Made by a program: the position numbers and the translations under genes. The notes under the pieces were generated by a model. The model did not search any database. It was given only the letters and a program-made list of their open reading frames with translations, and was not told the DNA's origin. A stretch of 64,000 nt of DNA from Oligoflexia bacterium (GTDB taxonomy: Bacteria > Bdellovibrionota > Bdellovibrionia > JABDDW01), in contig JAWXAT010000047.1 in assembly GCA_034439615.1 (NCBI GenBank), forward strand, positions 62,001 to 126,000. Direction: 5' to 3'. The stretch's first letter is position 1; every line of letters starts with the position of its first letter. Of the stretch, positions 17,744 to 41,635 are shown one piece after another.

Positions 17744-18367
17744 TTATCTTAAGTCTTTTGCTGGCTTGGTGCTATAGAATTTGACCTTAACATCGGGACG
17801 ATCTTTGAACTCTGTGAGTGCCCAACCTTTTTCATACCCGACTACCTGTATGTCGAGTTTTTGACCTTTATCGACTTTAAAAGATTTCTTACTTTGGACT
17901 GGGGTTTTGTAGTCGTTGATGTAACTAAAAACGCCGTTGTCATTACCTTGATAAATTATGTCGATAGTTAACTCATGAGCTCCCGGAGTAAGGGGGCCTT
18001 TGAATACTCCAGTCTCGCGACCAATGGGTTGTTTCCCCACGTTATCGTCTAGGTAATAGGTATAAATTCTTTCTGAATCGATAGAGTAGCTAAGCGAATA
18101 AATTTTGTAACGAGTACTCATTTCATTTACATGGGTGATGCTGACAATAGGAAAAGAAGACTCAATTGCTTCAGATTTAATAAGTTGTCTAAAAAGTTTC
18201 ATTTGAGTTTTTTTCTCAATTACTTTTTCTTTCAAATCATTGATATTTTCGGTCACCACCTCGGGGTCAGACTTCGATGTTTTGCGAGCAGCCTCTGAGA
18301 GTGGAGGAGGAGCTGCCAACGCAGATGACGCAATCAAAAATAAAAATGTAAAAACAAGACTCTTCAA
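17744..18367 (-). CDS. Secreted beta-sandwich-like protein, associated with TPR envelope genes
   Basis: Protein of 207 residues with a signal peptide (1-18, ALA), a short helical or coiled segment (about 40-65), then a beta-rich domain. That domain contains GPLTPGAHELTIDIIYQGN, GVFSYINDYK and VVGYEKGWALTEFKDRP. I recall the same GPL.PG.H pattern and (Y/F)SY...Y in myxobacterial periplasmic proteins misnamed dihydrolipoamide acetyltransferase, which neighbour TPR motility genes. That is memory, not a search. The TTG start overlaps the mltD stop (TTGA). It sits 41 bases before the first TPR gene. Confidence 0.65.
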   Translation of the reverse strand: MKSLVFTFLFLIASSALAAPPPLSEAARKTSKSDPEVVTENINDLKEKVIEKKTQMKLFRQLIKSEAIESSFPIVSITHVNEMSTRYKIYSLSYSIDSERIYTYYLDDNVGKQPIGRETGVFKGPLTPGAHELTIDIIYQGNDNGVFSYINDYKTPVQSKKSFKVDKGQKLDIQVVGYEKGWALTEFKDRPDVKVKFYSTKPAKDLR

Positions 18368-19893
18368 CGTTCATCTCCGGTGGGTAGTACCAACTTCTGA
18401 CCGGGTCTTAAAACACTGTTTCGAGACATATTGTTTGCTTTTAACAATTTTTGAATCGAGACACCCATGTCTTTACTAATACTAGAAAGCGTATCACCCG
18501 GTATAACTTTGTAAAGTCCCTGACTGACAGCGATCAGGGCTTTTTGTGGCTCTACATTCTTAAGTGCTGATAAAAACTTTTCGGTATGCCCCTTAGGGAT
18601 ACGGATTTTAAATCCATTTTCAGCGGGAATACGTCTAGCCCCTACAAGAACTGGACGTGTGAAGTATGGATTATACAAACGCGCCCTCTCTACACCATCG
18701 TCAGAATCTGTTTTGAATCCGTATGCCAACTCTGGAAATGTCAAAGGTCGAGGTATCTCGATTTCGTCGTAGACTAAAGGCGGGCTAATATCAACCTTGC
18801 CAAAATATTTGGCCGCATTTTTTTCAACAACAAGGGCCGCCAAAAAACAAGCGTAGAAATTCTCGCTGGCAAAGCCAAAACGCCGCCCCGTTGAATTCCA
18901 AACAATTTCATTTATATCGTCTGACTGTAATTTCTTGGCAATTCTAGATACCCCTTGTGGGCCATGATTGTAACCGGTCAGTGCGAAAGACCAATTTCCA
19001 AGCATTCGGTAATTACTTGCAAGCAGTTTTGCTGCCGCCCTTGTAGCGGTCAATGGATCATTACGCAAATCTCTAATGGGATCGATTTTAAGTTTAAATA
19101 ATTTTCCAGTAGATCTCATGAATTGCCAAATGCCACTAGCCCCAACTCGCGAATATGCATACAGGTTAAATGAACTCTCAACAAATGGAAGTCTTGTGAG
19201 TTCGATGGGAACATTTTCTTCACGAAATATTTTTTCCATCTCGCGGATGTAGCGTCCTGAAAAATAAATACCCAATAAGAAACGATCTTTTTGACCCAAT
19301 TGCATCCGAAGGCGATTGCGAGCAGAGGCTGCAGAGAATTTATTTTTCTCAGTTATAAATCTAAATTTTTTAAAAACAATCTGATCTTCTTCAGAAAGCT
19401 TACTTGGATTATCTTGAAGTTTTTGAATGCGTGTTAGTTGTTCACGTATTTTGTTTTTCTCATCTTTGATACGTTTCTTTTTTGCTCTTTCATCACCGTC
19501 AAGATCTGAAAAATCTAAAGTCTTATAAACGATATCCATGTATTTTGCGTCATGGAGAAGTGCCTGCTTAGTAGAATATTTTGAATAAATATCAATCCAG
19601 AACTCAACTCGTTGACGAAATCCGGGAGGAACATCAAAAATATTTGGTGTCCACCCTAGAACTCCTTCTTGTTTAGAATAATCTGGAGCCGCCCAATATA
19701 TTCCTGTTTTGTGCTGCTCCTCAAGAGCGATTTGTTTATTAATCTCGCCCGTTAATAATTGATTATCTTCACTTTGTTCTTCTTCAGCCGCAGTTGTGGC
19801 CACTGGAGCTTCAGAAAGTTCATGGGGTGATTGAGCCAACACAGAAGTTGTCAGACAACAAAGTAGTAAGACTGAGGTTAAATATTTTTTCAT
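18364..19893 (-). CDS. mltD: Membrane-bound lytic murein transglycosylase D-like
   Basis: Protein of 509 residues: signal peptide (1-20, VLA), a helical N-terminal region, then an SLT domain. The catalytic Glu is about 239 (LPFVESSFN), followed by ASGIWQFMRSTG and ALTGYNHGPQG, the goose-lysozyme-like signatures. A single LysM follows at about 462-505 (YKVIPGDTLSSISKDMGV). MltD cleaves peptidoglycan glycan strands, forming anhydromuropeptides. There is no lipobox, so it is probably soluble or held by LysM. Its ATG overlaps the dacB stop; the two peptidoglycan hydrolases head the envelope operon and may open the wall for a trans-envelope assembly (inference). Confidence 0.92.
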   Translation of the reverse strand: MKKYLTSVLLLCCLTTSVLAQSPHELSEAPVATTAAEEEQSEDNQLLTGEINKQIALEEQHKTGIYWAAPDYSKQEGVLGWTPNIFDVPPGFRQRVEFWIDIYSKYSTKQALLHDAKYMDIVYKTLDFSDLDGDERAKKKRIKDEKNKIREQLTRIQKLQDNPSKLSEEDQIVFKKFRFITEKNKFSAASARNRLRMQLGQKDRFLLGIYFSGRYIREMEKIFREENVPIELTRLPFVESSFNLYAYSRVGASGIWQFMRSTGKLFKLKIDPIRDLRNDPLTATRAAAKLLASNYRMLGNWSFALTGYNHGPQGVSRIAKKLQSDDINEIVWNSTGRRFGFASENFYACFLAALVVEKNAAKYFGKVDISPPLVYDEIEIPRPLTFPELAYGFKTDSDDGVERARLYNPYFTRPVLVGARRIPAENGFKIRIPKGHTEKFLSALKNVEPQKALIAVSQGLYKVIPGDTLSSISKDMGVSIQKLLKANNMSRNSVLRPGQKLVLPTGDER

Positions 19894-21290
19894 TTCACAA
19901 GACTCGCTGCCATATTATCAAAAGTGTTTCGCACATGAGATCCATCAGCTTTTCCATTATACATAAATGCAAATTGCAAAACTCCATTACTACTTCGCCC
20001 TGCGTAACCTGAGAGCGCCACAACTCCTGTGAGTAGACCTGTTTTTGCCCTCACCCACCTCTCAGCTTGACCCTTCATACGTCTCTCAAGTGTGCCATCG
20101 ACTCCTGCGCTGGGAAGACTTTGCACCAATTCAGGGTAAATTCTGAATTGCTGTTGAACCCAACTGAGCAGATCGATGAATTGCAAGGCGGTGAAAGAAT
20201 TTTTTCGAGAAAACCCTGAGACATTTGCTAAAACAAAATCAGTGCGTTTAAGATTAAGTTCAGTTGAAATAAAATTGCGTACTTGTTCAAGTCCATCTTC
20301 CATGCGACCTTGTTTTCCGGTTACTTGAGCTCCTAAACCTTTTGCGAGCATTTCAGCCACAAAATTATTTGAAAATTTATTCACATCAGAAACTAGTTTA
20401 CTTAACGGAAAACTTGGCTGATCAGTAATGAGTTCGGCCTTAGCTGAAAGCTTCCCTAAAACTACAGAACCTTCAACGTCTATTCCCCGTTCTTTTAAAA
20501 ATCTTTTGAGATTACTACCAGCATAAAGTGCAGGGTTAGAAATATTCTTATAAATTACTTTCTCAGCAGCACCTTGTGCGATACTTCCAGAAACAGTGAT
20601 GACGTCTTTACCACCACTGGTTGATCTTGAAGCCTCAACACTTGTTACGCCCTTACTTGTTTTAACTGTGTTTACAAGTGTGATGTAATCATTTTCAGGG
20701 TCAATTGTGACTTGCGCTTTTTCACCTTCTTTACGACCAGCGCGTATATAAATATTTGTACTATTCCAATTAAATGAAAGCGCACTCACCGGCGCATCGT
20801 AGGCTCGATCATTTCTCTGAGGCTCGCGACCTTCATCAAATTTATCGCTGTCAAAATAAGTGTCATCAACGACGATATTACCGGTTATCTTTTTAATTCC
20901 ACTACGTGTGAAATCGTTAACGAGCATCCACATTCTCTCTGAAACAAAAGCAGGATCCCCGCCCCCTTTGAGGATAAGATTTCCTTTTAAAATATTTCCA
21001 GTTTGCTCACCATCGACATGTAATTGAGTATGAAATTTATAATCGGCCTGCAAGATGTGAAGAACCGCTGAAGTGGTGAAAAGTTTTGTTATTGAAGCCG
21101 GTATGAAATGTTTATCGCCATTTATCTCAAATAAAATGTTTTTTTGCCCATCAGACACCGCGATACCGAGATCGGCTTTTTTCAAACCTGACTTATCGAC
21201 GATTTTATCAAGACGTTCTTTTAAATCACTCTTCCAATCAGCACTCACGACCTGAGTGAACATAACGCATAGCAAGATAATCCATTTCAT
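19890..21290 (-). CDS. dacB: D-alanyl-D-alanine carboxypeptidase/endopeptidase (PBP4 type)
   Basis: A 466-residue class C penicillin-binding protein with a signal peptide (1-17). The active-site SxxK is ASITKLF (S66, K69), SxN is KFSNNFVAEML and KTG is RAKTGLLTG. The large insertion between SxxK and SxN typical of PBP4 (about 90-300) is present. It removes terminal D-Ala and cuts D-Ala-meso-DAP cross-links. The ATG follows AAGGGAG. It is the first gene of the ten-gene minus-strand run and divergent from the Omp85-like gene. Confidence 0.93.
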   Translation of the reverse strand: MKWIILLCVMFTQVVSADWKSDLKERLDKIVDKSGLKKADLGIAVSDGQKNILFEINGDKHFIPASITKLFTTSAVLHILQADYKFHTQLHVDGEQTGNILKGNLILKGGGDPAFVSERMWMLVNDFTRSGIKKITGNIVVDDTYFDSDKFDEGREPQRNDRAYDAPVSALSFNWNSTNIYIRAGRKEGEKAQVTIDPENDYITLVNTVKTSKGVTSVEASRSTSGGKDVITVSGSIAQGAAEKVIYKNISNPALYAGSNLKRFLKERGIDVEGSVVLGKLSAKAELITDQPSFPLSKLVSDVNKFSNNFVAEMLAKGLGAQVTGKQGRMEDGLEQVRNFISTELNLKRTDFVLANVSGFSRKNSFTALQFIDLLSWVQQQFRIYPELVQSLPSAGVDGTLERRMKGQAERWVRAKTGLLTGVVALSGYAGRSSNGVLQFAFMYNGKADGSHVRNTFDNMAASLVK

Positions 21291-21381: not shown

Positions 21382-22503
21382 ATGAAAGTTTTCACACTCC
21401 CATATTTTGCAGGGTTATTTTTTAGTGTATTCATTGCGCTGCATTTACCTGCAATTTCATTTGCACAAAGTGACTCCACAGAAAGAGTTCTAGTTCTCCC
21501 ACTTGCAGGTTACAGCGATGAACAAGGCCTGGGAGTTGGCGCAAATGCTGCTTGGTTTAACATGCTGGGTTCTGGCTGGAGTTCATCGGCAGCACTTTTT
21601 GCATCAACACTCTATTCACAAACTCGTATTGACTACGATGTTTACAATCGAAATTTTTTTGATGTGGTTTATGCAAACGTTGGCGGCTTTTACAATCGAA
21701 GTACACGCTCTTTGTTTTATGGTCTCGGAAACAACTCCTCACTCTCAGATGCGTCTCAGTACGCCATCAACGACACTCAAATTTTTGGTCGCGTTGGTGT
21801 TAAAATATTTAGCGAAGTTGTCGCAGGCGTGGGCTATAGCCACAGATCCACCGGAATAGATCGTGGTGCGGATCCTAATTTACAACAATTTTTTGATCGC
21901 TGGTCTACGAATCCGAGTCTTTCTGGTTCAGTGACAACTGCGACTTCTGTTTTTGCAACTTATGATACACGCACCCCCAATTTGGCTCCACAAAGCGGAA
22001 GTTTTGTTTTTACATCCCTTGAACAACTTCAACCTCGGTCAGGTCAAGATCTTCATCAACAACGCTACACATTGCATGGGCAGCATTACCTTCCGATTAT
22101 GGACAAAGATTTTTTAATATTATTACGCGGTCGTTATGAAAAACAATGGGGCGAAAATATTCCATTTTACCTACAACCCAAGCTTGGTGGTAGTACTTCA
22201 ATTCGTGCATTAAAAAACAATCGATACATTGATAGTGGGAATATCTTATTTAATATTGAACCGCGCTATACACTTTGGTCGCCAGGCGGAGCCATCTTTG
22301 AAAGAATTGAAATCAGCTTTGGCATTGATGCTGGTCGAGTTTTTGATTACGAAAATATACCCCCTAGGCCATGGGATAGTTATCGTATCGGCTACGACAT
22401 TGGTCTAACTGGAATTCTCGCAGGTGGTATTCCTCTTCGTATAGATCTCGCTCCTGGAGCAGAAGGCACATTGTTTTACGTTCATTTATTTTATCCCTTT
22501 TAA
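21382..22503 (+). CDS. Omp85/BamA-type surface-antigen barrel protein (no POTRA)
   Basis: Protein of 373 residues: signal peptide 1-29 (SFA), then a 16-strand-like beta-barrel matching the bacterial surface antigen (D15) domain. Family hallmarks are the early LPLAGYSDEQGLGVGANAAW and the late GGSTSIRALKNNRYIDSGN, which corresponds to the conserved lid-loop (R-G-F/Y) region. It ends YVHLFYPF with a terminal Phe. POTRA domains are absent, so it is not BamA itself but a barrel-only relative. Alone on its strand, divergent from dacB and 33 bases upstream of the LspA-like gene. Confidence 0.82.
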   Translation: MKVFTLPYFAGLFFSVFIALHLPAISFAQSDSTERVLVLPLAGYSDEQGLGVGANAAWFNMLGSGWSSSAALFASTLYSQTRIDYDVYNRNFFDVVYANVGGFYNRSTRSLFYGLGNNSSLSDASQYAINDTQIFGRVGVKIFSEVVAGVGYSHRSTGIDRGADPNLQQFFDRWSTNPSLSGSVTTATSVFATYDTRTPNLAPQSGSFVFTSLEQLQPRSGQDLHQQRYTLHGQHYLPIMDKDFLILLRGRYEKQWGENIPFYLQPKLGGSTSIRALKNNRYIDSGNILFNIEPRYTLWSPGGAIFERIEISFGIDAGRVFDYENIPPRPWDSYRIGYDIGLTGILAGGIPLRIDLAPGAEGTLFYVHLFYPF

Positions 22504-22535: not shown

Positions 22536-23444
22536 ATGAAAAAACGTGAATGGTTTTTAGTACTATTACCACTTCTTCTAACTTGGTCAGTCGATCGGGT
22601 AACGAAGATCTGGGCCTCTGGCCTTACTGGTGTAGATTTTCATGGTCCTCTTGGTTTCATGCTCCACCATAATCATGGAGCAATCTTAGGCCTCTTTAGT
22701 GACTTGCCCGGCATGCTCAGAATTGTGAGTCTCTCAACTGGCGGAGCATTTTTACTTTTTCTCTATGGCATTTTGCAATTTTTATTGCCGACAAAATCTA
22801 TGCTTTTACGCATCGGACTTTCATTTCTCACAGGCGGAATCATTGGTAACGTGACAGATAGAATCATTTGGGGATACGTCGTTGATTTTATTATCATCGG
22901 TAGCCCACAAAGATTTTCACCCAATTTTAATCTTGCCGACGCCCTTCAATGGGTTGGATACATTTGCATCGTCATCGCACTCATTGTTGAAGGAAAATCA
23001 CTCTGGCCCGTTGAAAATCTTCGCAAAAGCTACTGGATCAACACACGCTTTCAAATCAAATATTGCTTAATTCTCATGACATGTGGTTTAGGACTAACAT
23101 TGATTTTAGGAACCTACAGTTACACTTATCTTAGTGTAACGATCAGCGAACTTCGTGGCCCTAACCCCATCTTAGCTGCGCAGTTTTTAAAGCCCTTCGT
23201 CATGACATTTGGAATCGTGAGTTTTACATTTGCATTTGTTCTTTTTGCAGTGGGATTAATTTTGTCACACAGAGCCGCAGGGCCAATGTATGCATTTCAA
23301 AGATTCTTAAATGATCATATCGAAGGTAAAAATCCAAAACTTAAACTTAGAATCGGTGATGAATTTATTGAACTTGAAGAACTCGCAAAACGACTTACCG
23401 AATCTAAACCTAATCCAAAACCTTCACGGTCAAAAAGCGGTTAA
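22536..23444 (+). CDS. Signal peptidase II (LspA)-like protein fused to a TM-HAMP module
   Basis: Protein of 302 residues. Residues 1-155 have an LspA fold: VDRVTK (D20), HNHGAILGLFSD, GGIIGNVTDR (N105, catalytic D108), WGYVVDFI (D117) and FNLADALQ (catalytic D135). All catalytic residues are kept, so lipoprotein signal cleavage at the inner membrane is plausible. Normal LspA stops there. This one adds two TM segments (about 175-200 and 222-243) and a HAMP-like segment at 244-290 (SHRAAGPMYAF, then RIGDEFIELEE). The last bears strong resemblance to the HAMP of the protein at 41000. A bona fide lspA elsewhere is possible. The 3' end overlaps the convergent exonuclease gene by 35 bases. Confidence 0.82.
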   Translation: MKKREWFLVLLPLLLTWSVDRVTKIWASGLTGVDFHGPLGFMLHHNHGAILGLFSDLPGMLRIVSLSTGGAFLLFLYGILQFLLPTKSMLLRIGLSFLTGGIIGNVTDRIIWGYVVDFIIIGSPQRFSPNFNLADALQWVGYICIVIALIVEGKSLWPVENLRKSYWINTRFQIKYCLILMTCGLGLTLILGTYSYTYLSVTISELRGPNPILAAQFLKPFVMTFGIVSFTFAFVLFAVGLILSHRAAGPMYAFQRFLNDHIEGKNPKLKLRIGDEFIELEELAKRLTESKPNPKPSRSKSG

Positions 23445-24240
23445 GATAAAATCGCTTCTCAGTATTCTCGCGATGACAATGCCCGACAACGTAATCACCA
23501 TCACGTGCACGCACAAGGCCTTGAGGTGTTATGCGTCTTGGCTCACCAGGTTGGGTGCCACCTTGATACGTAATTTCTAAAACCCATTGTTTTTCAGAGC
23601 CTTCAACTAAAGGCCGAGTTAACTCTTGGGCTAAAAGATCATTCATCGAAAAACGTGACCATTCAAAAGAACCACCTTGAGCTTTTGCTATAAATTCGAG
23701 CGTAGAATCTCCACCTAATTTTTCCATGCACTGAAGACAAACCTCTAAACAGGCACGACTATCTTCAAGTGCACGATGGGCTTGCCCCATCTTCACACCC
23801 AAAAGTGCAACAAGAGTTGCCAATCGATGATTCTGTGATTTTGGAAATGCCTTAAGTGCCAAGAGACAACTATCGAGCACGATATTATTTGGTAATGGAA
23901 TTTTTAATTTTTCATATTCAAGAGCGAGAAATCCTAAATCAAACGCAGCATGATGGGCCATTAATACAGAACCTTTTATAAACGCATCAAATTGCAAAAG
24001 AACATCTGGCATCAATGGAGCATTAGCCACCATTTCATTTGTGATATGATGAATACGAATAACAGCTTCACCCATCTGGCGATGGGGCTTCACGAGTGAT
24101 TGAAAAGTATCAATCACTTTTCCATTTTGCCACTTCATGGCAGCAATCTCAACAACCTCAGCTACCAGCGGATACTTGCCCGAGGTCTCAGTGTCAAAAC
24201 TTATGTACGTGTAATCACGCCAAGGGCGAGTTTGATCCAT
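23410..24240 (-). CDS. DnaQ-like DEDDh 3'-5' exonuclease
   Basis: Protein of 276 residues with an N-terminal (about 12-180) exonuclease domain of the DNA polymerase III epsilon type. Exo I is YISFDTETSG, Exo II is LMAHHAAFDLGFL and Exo III is QAHRALEDSRA. The metal-binding D, E, D, D and catalytic His are all visible. The C-terminal ~90 residues hold a beta-rich domain of unknown role (YQGGTQPGEPRRITPQG) that resembles a small WYL-like or transcription-coupled add-on; this is uncertain. Likely roles are proofreading or nucleic-acid trimming. It follows the lipoprotein gene at 25406 by 2 bases. Confidence 0.87.
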   Translation of the reverse strand: MDQTRPWRDYTYISFDTETSGKYPLVAEVVEIAAMKWQNGKVIDTFQSLVKPHRQMGEAVIRIHHITNEMVANAPLMPDVLLQFDAFIKGSVLMAHHAAFDLGFLALEYEKLKIPLPNNIVLDSCLLALKAFPKSQNHRLATLVALLGVKMGQAHRALEDSRACLEVCLQCMEKLGGDSTLEFIAKAQGGSFEWSRFSMNDLLAQELTRPLVEGSEKQWVLEITYQGGTQPGEPRRITPQGLVRARDGDYVVGHCHRENTEKRFYLNRFLTVKVLD

Positions 24241-40999: not shown

Positions 41000-41635
41000 A
41001 TGATACGCAATTTTCCAAGGCATTCTCACTCAAGAAAGCTCAAGCGCTGGCGTACCCAGATGGTTATCGTGCGCCGCTTTCAATACCGTTATGCGGTTTT
41101 TCTCGCATCATTCGGCGCAGCACTGGCTATTATCATTGGTGGGCTTACTCTTTATTTATTGAATCATAATTACGACTTATTTATGAAGGCCGAACTTCTC
41201 ACCGCCCCTCAACTTGTGGATAACTTAGGCCGTGAGTTAAAACTCGCAAACGAAATCTTAGTGACAGCCCTCATTGGATTTATTTTAGTTATGGGCGGCA
41301 TTGGCGTTAGATTTTCTCATCGCATTGTGGTTCCGATTTATCTCATTCAAGAAAAAATGCGCGAGATCTGTCGTGGGAATTTCTTTAGCGCTAAAGTAAG
41401 CATTCGAAAAAATGATGAGTTTCAAGAATTTGCTGAGACTTATAATTACTTAGTAGAATCAATGCGCACCCAATTAAAATCAGACTTACTGCGATTAGAA
41501 AAATTAAAACCTGATGAGCATAATAGAGACGCCGTACATACTTGGGAATGTTTGGTTCGTGAAAAAGAAGCCCAACTTAACGGCCAGGACTCCGCCGCAC
41601 CTGATCCAACTGCCTCTTCACGTCACGCGTCTTAA
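41000..41635 (+). CDS. HAMP-domain membrane protein without output domain
   Basis: Protein of 211 residues. A basic N-terminus is followed by TM1 (about 30-54), a short periplasmic loop, TM2 (about 85-108), and a HAMP domain (about 110-160: SHRIVVPIYLIQEKM, IRKNDEFQEFAETYN). The rest is a short helical, hydrophilic tail with no kinase, cyclase or methyl-accepting region. The HAMP matches that of the LspA-like fusion at 22536 closely (SHR..xP(M/I)Y, R..DEF.E). It could be a signalling adaptor. The last 59 bases are antisense to the smpB 3' end. Confidence 0.75.
   Translation: MIRNFPRHSHSRKLKRWRTQMVIVRRFQYRYAVFLASFGAALAIIIGGLTLYLLNHNYDLFMKAELLTAPQLVDNLGRELKLANEILVTALIGFILVMGGIGVRFSHRIVVPIYLIQEKMREICRGNFFSAKVSIRKNDEFQEFAETYNYLVESMRTQLKSDLLRLEKLKPDEHNRDAVHTWECLVREKEAQLNGQDSAAPDPTASSRHAS

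Follow-up and report, generated by a model that had tools for sequence, protein, structure and literature searches.

A gene of an Oligoflexia bacterium (class Bdellovibrionia) encodes a signal peptidase II (LspA) that continues into two further transmembrane (TM) helices and a HAMP-like segment. This fused protein is a second, monophyletic LspA that exists beside the housekeeping copy. Because the fused gene is both linked to and co-distributed with lipoprotein signals of an atypical lipobox type, it seems somewhat probable that the fused enzyme is dedicated to such lipoproteins. The gene is located on a stretch of 64,000 nucleotides that was analysed as a whole (the window); the positions of the relevant features are compiled in Table 1.

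The open reading frame (22536-23444, plus strand) is a single frame of 302 amino acids with an ATG start and a TAA stop. Residues 14-150 matched Peptidase_A8 (Pfam PF01252; E 2.9e-22, 79.8 bits, cut-off 25), as did 22 of 22 relatives of the fused protein. The cut-off of the lspA equivalog model TIGR00077 (73.95) was not reached (48.2 bits), and by these scores the protein would be classed as a member of the LspA family and not as a standard lspA equivalog. An AlphaFold2 model showed the LspA fold (Foldseek matches to 5dir, 6ryp and 6ryo with E 6e-7 to 5e-6), followed by a helix from residue 170 to 207, a helix from 211 to 262, a connector and a helix from 278 to 289. The nearest solved structures to the LspA domain were those of LspA (6ryo, 9emz, 5dir). 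The original prediction of an intact LspA with two further TM helices and a HAMP-like segment is confirmed, the HAMP-like part through the profile comparison described below. A frameshift or assembly join at about residue 160, which had been named as a finding that would overturn it, is excluded, since 59 of 60 relatives were full length and free of stops; the fusion is real. A literature search yielded no paper describing an LspA fused to a two-TM HAMP-like module, in agreement with the claim that no LspA of this form had been described.

Table 1. Positions of the fused gene, its neighbours and standalone HAMP-like genes (window coordinates unless a locus is given)
Feature	Position	Strand	Remarks
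SLT-LysM lytic transglycosylase (MltD-like)	18364..19893	-	family in 54/79 loci
PBP4/DacB-type D-Ala-D-Ala carboxypeptidase (Peptidase_S13)	19890..21290	-	divergent; family in 68/79 loci
Omp85-family outer membrane protein	21382..22503	+	33 bp upstream of fused gene, same strand
LspA (Peptidase_A8) domain, residues 1-158	22536..23009	+	four TM helices; D20, N46, N105, D108, D117, N132, D135 kept
Two extra TM helices, residues 159-243	23010..23264	+	RKxYWINxxFQ motif at start, also in standalone two-TM HAMP-like proteins
HAMP-like segment, residues 244-290	23265..23405	+	SHRxxGP helix running on from TM6, connector, RxGDEFxxLE helix
3'-5' exonuclease	23410..24240	-	convergent, overlaps 3' end of fused gene; family in 61/79 loci
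Standalone two-TM HAMP-like paralogue of the C-terminal module	41000..41635	+	matches HAMP-bearing kinases, e.g. WalK (3e-7)
Operon-end standalone HAMP-like gene	L174:5193-5654		own genome (G000, contig C61)
Operon-end standalone HAMP-like gene	L172:3292-3831
Operon-end standalone HAMP-like gene	L173:2184-2642

Judging from its active-site residues, the fused LspA is catalytically intact. N105, D108 and D135, which had been predicted to be kept, were found at the positions named and were invariant in 22 relatives, and the same was true for D20, K24, N46, D117, N132 and A134. In a set of 129 fused sequences, not all of them from different genomes, every sequence had D108 and D135, and 128 had D117. 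We take D117 and D135, whose positions were assigned through alignment, to be the catalytic aspartate pair of the structural literature. All positions common to ordinary LspA proteins were kept in the aligned fused proteins, divergent members included. The two types differed beside the active site, where fused proteins showed GAML instead of GAAF and, after D135, QW instead of IV. Residues M/I50, L51, Q138 and W139 were consistently unlike those of ordinary LspA and would suit a pocket accepting a larger residue at position -1.

The C-terminal module adds about 140 residues to LspA, and the second added TM helix runs into a cytoplasmic helix. Neither the Pfam HAMP model (PF00672; no match at E up to 1 in the fused protein and its relatives) nor the NCBIfam HAMP model (fused protein) detected it. 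Its homology to HAMP is deduced from profile-profile comparison through the standalone two-TM paralogues: against the HAMP domains of the same genome the fused tails alone gave a probability of 15% in exact register (E 0.0017), the tails together with the paralogues 92.5% (hhalign, E 4.8e-7, 51 columns in register) and the LspA part, which served as control, 0.1%. The original prediction had named failure of an HMM search to find HAMP as evidence against itself. Taken literally this is what the Pfam search returned, but the profile-profile comparison overturned it, and the predicted HAMP-like segment stands despite the silence of PF00672. Based on these sequence comparisons we regard the module as HAMP-like with confidence and as a functional HAMP provisionally. 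A monomer model of the module had a pLDDT of 90 with the helices in place; its top Foldseek match was a model of the HAMP-bearing WalK at a non-significant E of 2.6, and the C-terminal profile, compared with PDB sequences, gave only chance-looking matches. There is no sensor domain, the two long helices of the AlphaFold2 model being joined by a periplasmic turn of a few residues. An output domain after the module was likewise absent in all fused proteins except that of locus L215 (L215:4424-5878), where an AhpC/TSA domain follows the HAMP-like part; it is the sole output-like domain found, and a gene with an LQNC signal lies immediately upstream. With no sensor to be seen in the HAMP-like part, a function of the tail in dimerisation or in coupling the enzyme to partners is no less likely than gating; gating of lipoprotein processing is a possible, putative role.

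The module also exists on its own. The similarity to the protein encoded at 41000, already seen in the original prediction, held up (27% identity, E 4e-5, residues 165-291 of the fused protein), and several standalone modules were present per genome, many of them without an output domain and none with an input domain. In three of three genomes of the family to which the host belongs, a standalone gene closes the (ileS-)lspA-lgt-lgt operon (Table 1), the lspA-lgt-lgt operon of the host itself being interrupted by a contig end; no such operon-end gene was seen at any of the 20 other class loci that were read. The operon-end copies tie the module to lipoprotein maturation independently of the fusion. 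In genome G035 a standalone HAMP-like gene lies directly 3' of the fused gene. Two lgt genes (about 33% identical) were located near lspA in several families, at loci L172, L173, L174, L204, L207 and L209, and the second lgt might serve the atypical lipoproteins.

The full-length fused protein was found in 99 of 107 Bdellovibrionia genomes, each at least 90% complete, including Bdellovibrio bacteriovorus. In the contig search an alignment was used as query, as a single protein gave no matches; records with a full-length fusion included B. bacteriovorus strain kdesi and many genomes of Bdellovibrionales. Divergent full-length fusions were detected outside the class but within the phylum, in families f12 and f14. 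The original prediction had called for a search for a second lspA, and an ordinary LspA, usually in the order ileS-lspA-lgt, was indeed present besides the fusion, in 107 of 107 class genomes. In the genome of the host it is split across contig ends, with the 5' part following ileS on contig C5 and the 3' part preceding two lgt genes on C61. Fused and ordinary LspA formed separate clades in a phylogenetic tree (support 100/100). As all 107 genomes possess the housekeeping enzyme, lipoprotein processing in general does not have to rely on the fused one. A third, tail-less LspA occurs in genomes G033, G045 and G049 and in others of the class (for example at L195, where it is not beside ileS). 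The genera without a full-length fusion (g29, g61, g67 and g68) are related and have reduced genomes; some genomes of g61, g67 and g68 gave a weak second LspA-like match, the best E being about 1e-18 to 1e-31 in several. One record titled as a Streptomyces griseus MAG (L074) holds a clear Bdellovibrionota locus and is probably mislabelled.

At 79 class loci the fused gene is typically flanked by a dacB-mltD pair running divergently on one side and an exonuclease gene running convergently on the other (Table 1). Often located upstream are a gene for a solute-binding protein (29/79 loci) and/or a response regulator-GGDEF gene (23/79). Their place is occupied in the window by the Omp85-family gene, which was seen at that spot only in the window and one close relative. 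A model of a gated operon derived from the solute-binding protein and response regulator-GGDEF neighbours was abandoned, since such genes occur at only about half of the class loci. None of the fused loci read showed any sign of a biosynthetic cluster.

The ordinary lipobox has a small residue (G, A or S) at position -1. A different signal is enriched in genomes that harbour the fusion. Using the DNA pattern hydrophobic-[FY]QNC, with the reversed pattern as control, 14 matches against 1 were found in the genome of the host and 1331 against 151 in the 99 fused-positive genomes of the class (4.1 versus 0.47 per Mb, about ninefold). Ten genomes of the four fusion-less genera gave 20 against 17. 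The difference from the fused-positive genomes had a p of 1.4e-6, and of 7e-4 when only small fused-positive genomes were compared, both values being optimistic owing to shared ancestry. Read in frame, 11 of 14 matches were lipoprotein-like in the host genome and 8 of 11, 9 of 13 and 2 of 3 in other fused-positive genomes, compared with 0 of 13 in five fusion-negative ones. The matches in fused-positive genomes were mostly N-terminal signals, mainly of long proteins, with a typical linker sequence behind them. Among the families represented were cytochrome c, DUF1592, astacin, PKD/Ig and RCC1. The host genome holds both lipobox types. At one of its loci (L396:7392-11807, contig C34) three genes in a row have atypical lipoboxes (FYQNC, VFQNC and GYMNC), and in the two long products a DxSxS motif was recognised by eye, with no Pfam match. 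Among the known surface adhesins of B. bacteriovorus are MIDAS proteins that carry a lipobox (PMC11003981); as the text of that paper contains no lipobox letters, the idea that these adhesins are [FY]QNC lipoproteins is a lead only. The class candidates are not adjacent to the fused gene and would be substrates in trans. Two exceptions to the co-distribution are the near-complete, fragmented, fused-negative genomes G227 and G212, which hold the [FY]QNC motif; a contig end interrupts the fused locus in G227, as in G230, and the neighbouring dacB was not found in G212.

Outside the class the association is found in cis. At 12 of 20 loci a lipoprotein-like gene with an atypical box, defined here as [FY][QNT][NHQ]C, was located within about 5 kb of the fused gene. 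These linked candidate substrates carry N, H or Q at -1 and lack the canonical small residue. In f12 the fused gene is often the last of a cluster encoding DUF1549-like, small lipoprotein-like, Tat-signal and CxxCH proteins, and the signals of both lipoprotein-like proteins end with [FY][NT][HQN]C. Boxed neighbours unrelated by family to these cluster genes were present at four loci: an LQNC gene 15 bp upstream of the fused gene (L215), a YQNC (TYQNC) gene overlapping its end (L216), a YQNC (TYQNC) gene at a distance of 119 bp (L221) and a nearby SYQQC gene (L222). The h1 genes with an atypical lipobox adjoin the fusion as well. The fusions at L221 and L222, although from f12, are of the class type and lie near boxes of the class type (YQNC, YQQC). 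In genome G106 the three such signals present within 400 kb were all at the fused locus, some twenty other signals carrying S, A or G, and its fusion-less congener G102 had no atypical signal in 400 kb. No atypical lipobox was detected near the fused gene at five f12 loci of one clade and at L220 and L227. Neighbours of the fused genes of one f12 clade (L212:6043-7467, L226:1614-4709 and L231:5566-8706) have N-terminal helices that end with FQNF or LFLNAS and lack the cysteine. As the pattern [FY][NT][HQ]C was barely above control genome-wide across the phylum, the in-cis evidence alone counts for f12.

According to the reading that we favour, the fused enzyme would cut [FY]QNC-type signals, which ordinary LspA would process poorly. 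The dedicated substrates would mostly carry [FY]-Q-N-C in the class and [FY]-[NT]-[HQN]-C in part of f12, and the HAMP-like module would most likely dimerise the enzyme or link it with partners, and might also adjust its activity. We infer this specificity from association: ordinary LspA might also process atypical signals, and the fusion-less genera with their reduced genomes may have lost the enzyme and the substrates in separate events. The intact active site and HAMP-like tail could, in line with the original prediction, belong to a redundant second LspA of ordinary specificity whose tail would gate lipoprotein maturation as a whole or set its level, and the response regulator-GGDEF and solute-binding protein genes upstream, the latter mostly with an ordinary-looking lipobox, would fit this idea. 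We consider it unlikely, given that a housekeeping LspA is always present, that no sensor domain is visible and that the link to the atypical lipobox is strong. The signal-gated LspA-HAMP of the original prediction is upheld in its architecture, while the evidence points rather to a separate substrate class.

It is conceivable, if less than an even chance, that the module is purely structural, serving dimerisation or partner docking in lipoprotein biogenesis without any signalling. This reading is about the tail alone and does not conflict with a dedicated peptidase. The standalone copy at the end of the ileS-lspA-lgt-lgt operon and the many copies without input or output domain speak for it. 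HAMP domains usually convey conformational change, however; the fused sequences strictly conserve the residues that characterise HAMP, and the homologue at L215 does have a domain after the module. Finally, the lipobox link might be a phylogenetic coincidence, FQNC being a habit of the lineage that ordinary LspA tolerates and the fused protein having other substrates or a role in resistance. Extra lspA copies in producers of LspA inhibitors (PMC8689077) and the lack of in-cis linkage in the class are consistent with this. It is nevertheless improbable in view of the repeated in-cis linkage outside the class, the matching of motif subtypes and the lack of any sign of a biosynthetic cluster at the loci read. 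Extending the dedicated-peptidase reading, one may tentatively envisage two independently controlled parallel maturation routes in Bdellovibrionota, one universal and one with a HAMP-coupled signal peptidase II for [FY]xNC envelope or surface lipoproteins.

The fused protein shares the fold, the four-TM core and the active-site residues with known LspA proteins (PF01252; 5dir, 6ryo, 6ryp), but has the additional module, falls into a separate clade and probably recognises a different lipobox. The module resembles HAMP (PF00672) in the TM helix that runs into an amphipathic helix with a GP motif, the connector, the DEF motif and the second helix; it differs in escaping the Pfam model and in its lack of a sensor and, except at L215, of an output domain. 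LapD is a c-di-GMP receptor that controls a separate protease. In inside-out HAMP signalling of the LapD type (PMC3032553) a HAMP domain likewise links, in principle, the cytoplasm to periplasmic proteolysis. Here, by contrast, the peptidase itself bears the module, and no nucleotide-binding domain was seen in the fused protein. More than one LspA per genome is also known from antibiotic producers, namely Myxococcus xanthus (LspA1-4) and Streptomyces hagronensis, where extra copies have been suggested to confer resistance (PMC8689077). None of the copies described there has a HAMP-like tail, and the fusion, unlike them, is nearly class-wide. The second LspA together with the [FY]QNC class of lipoproteins suggests a separate lipoprotein pathway.

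In most diderm bacteria LspA forms a bottleneck that consists of a single enzyme, and it serves as a drug target. If the proposed role is true, lipoproteins in the class would be sorted in a new way, by a second, class-wide LspA that has a signal code of its own. Lipobox predictors would then overlook a group of proteins in these predatory bacteria, which in the genome of the host would include the DxSxS proteins, an astacin-like protease and PKD/Ig and RCC1 repeat proteins. The two enzymes with their substrates would also provide natural pairs for studying how LspA reads the lipobox.
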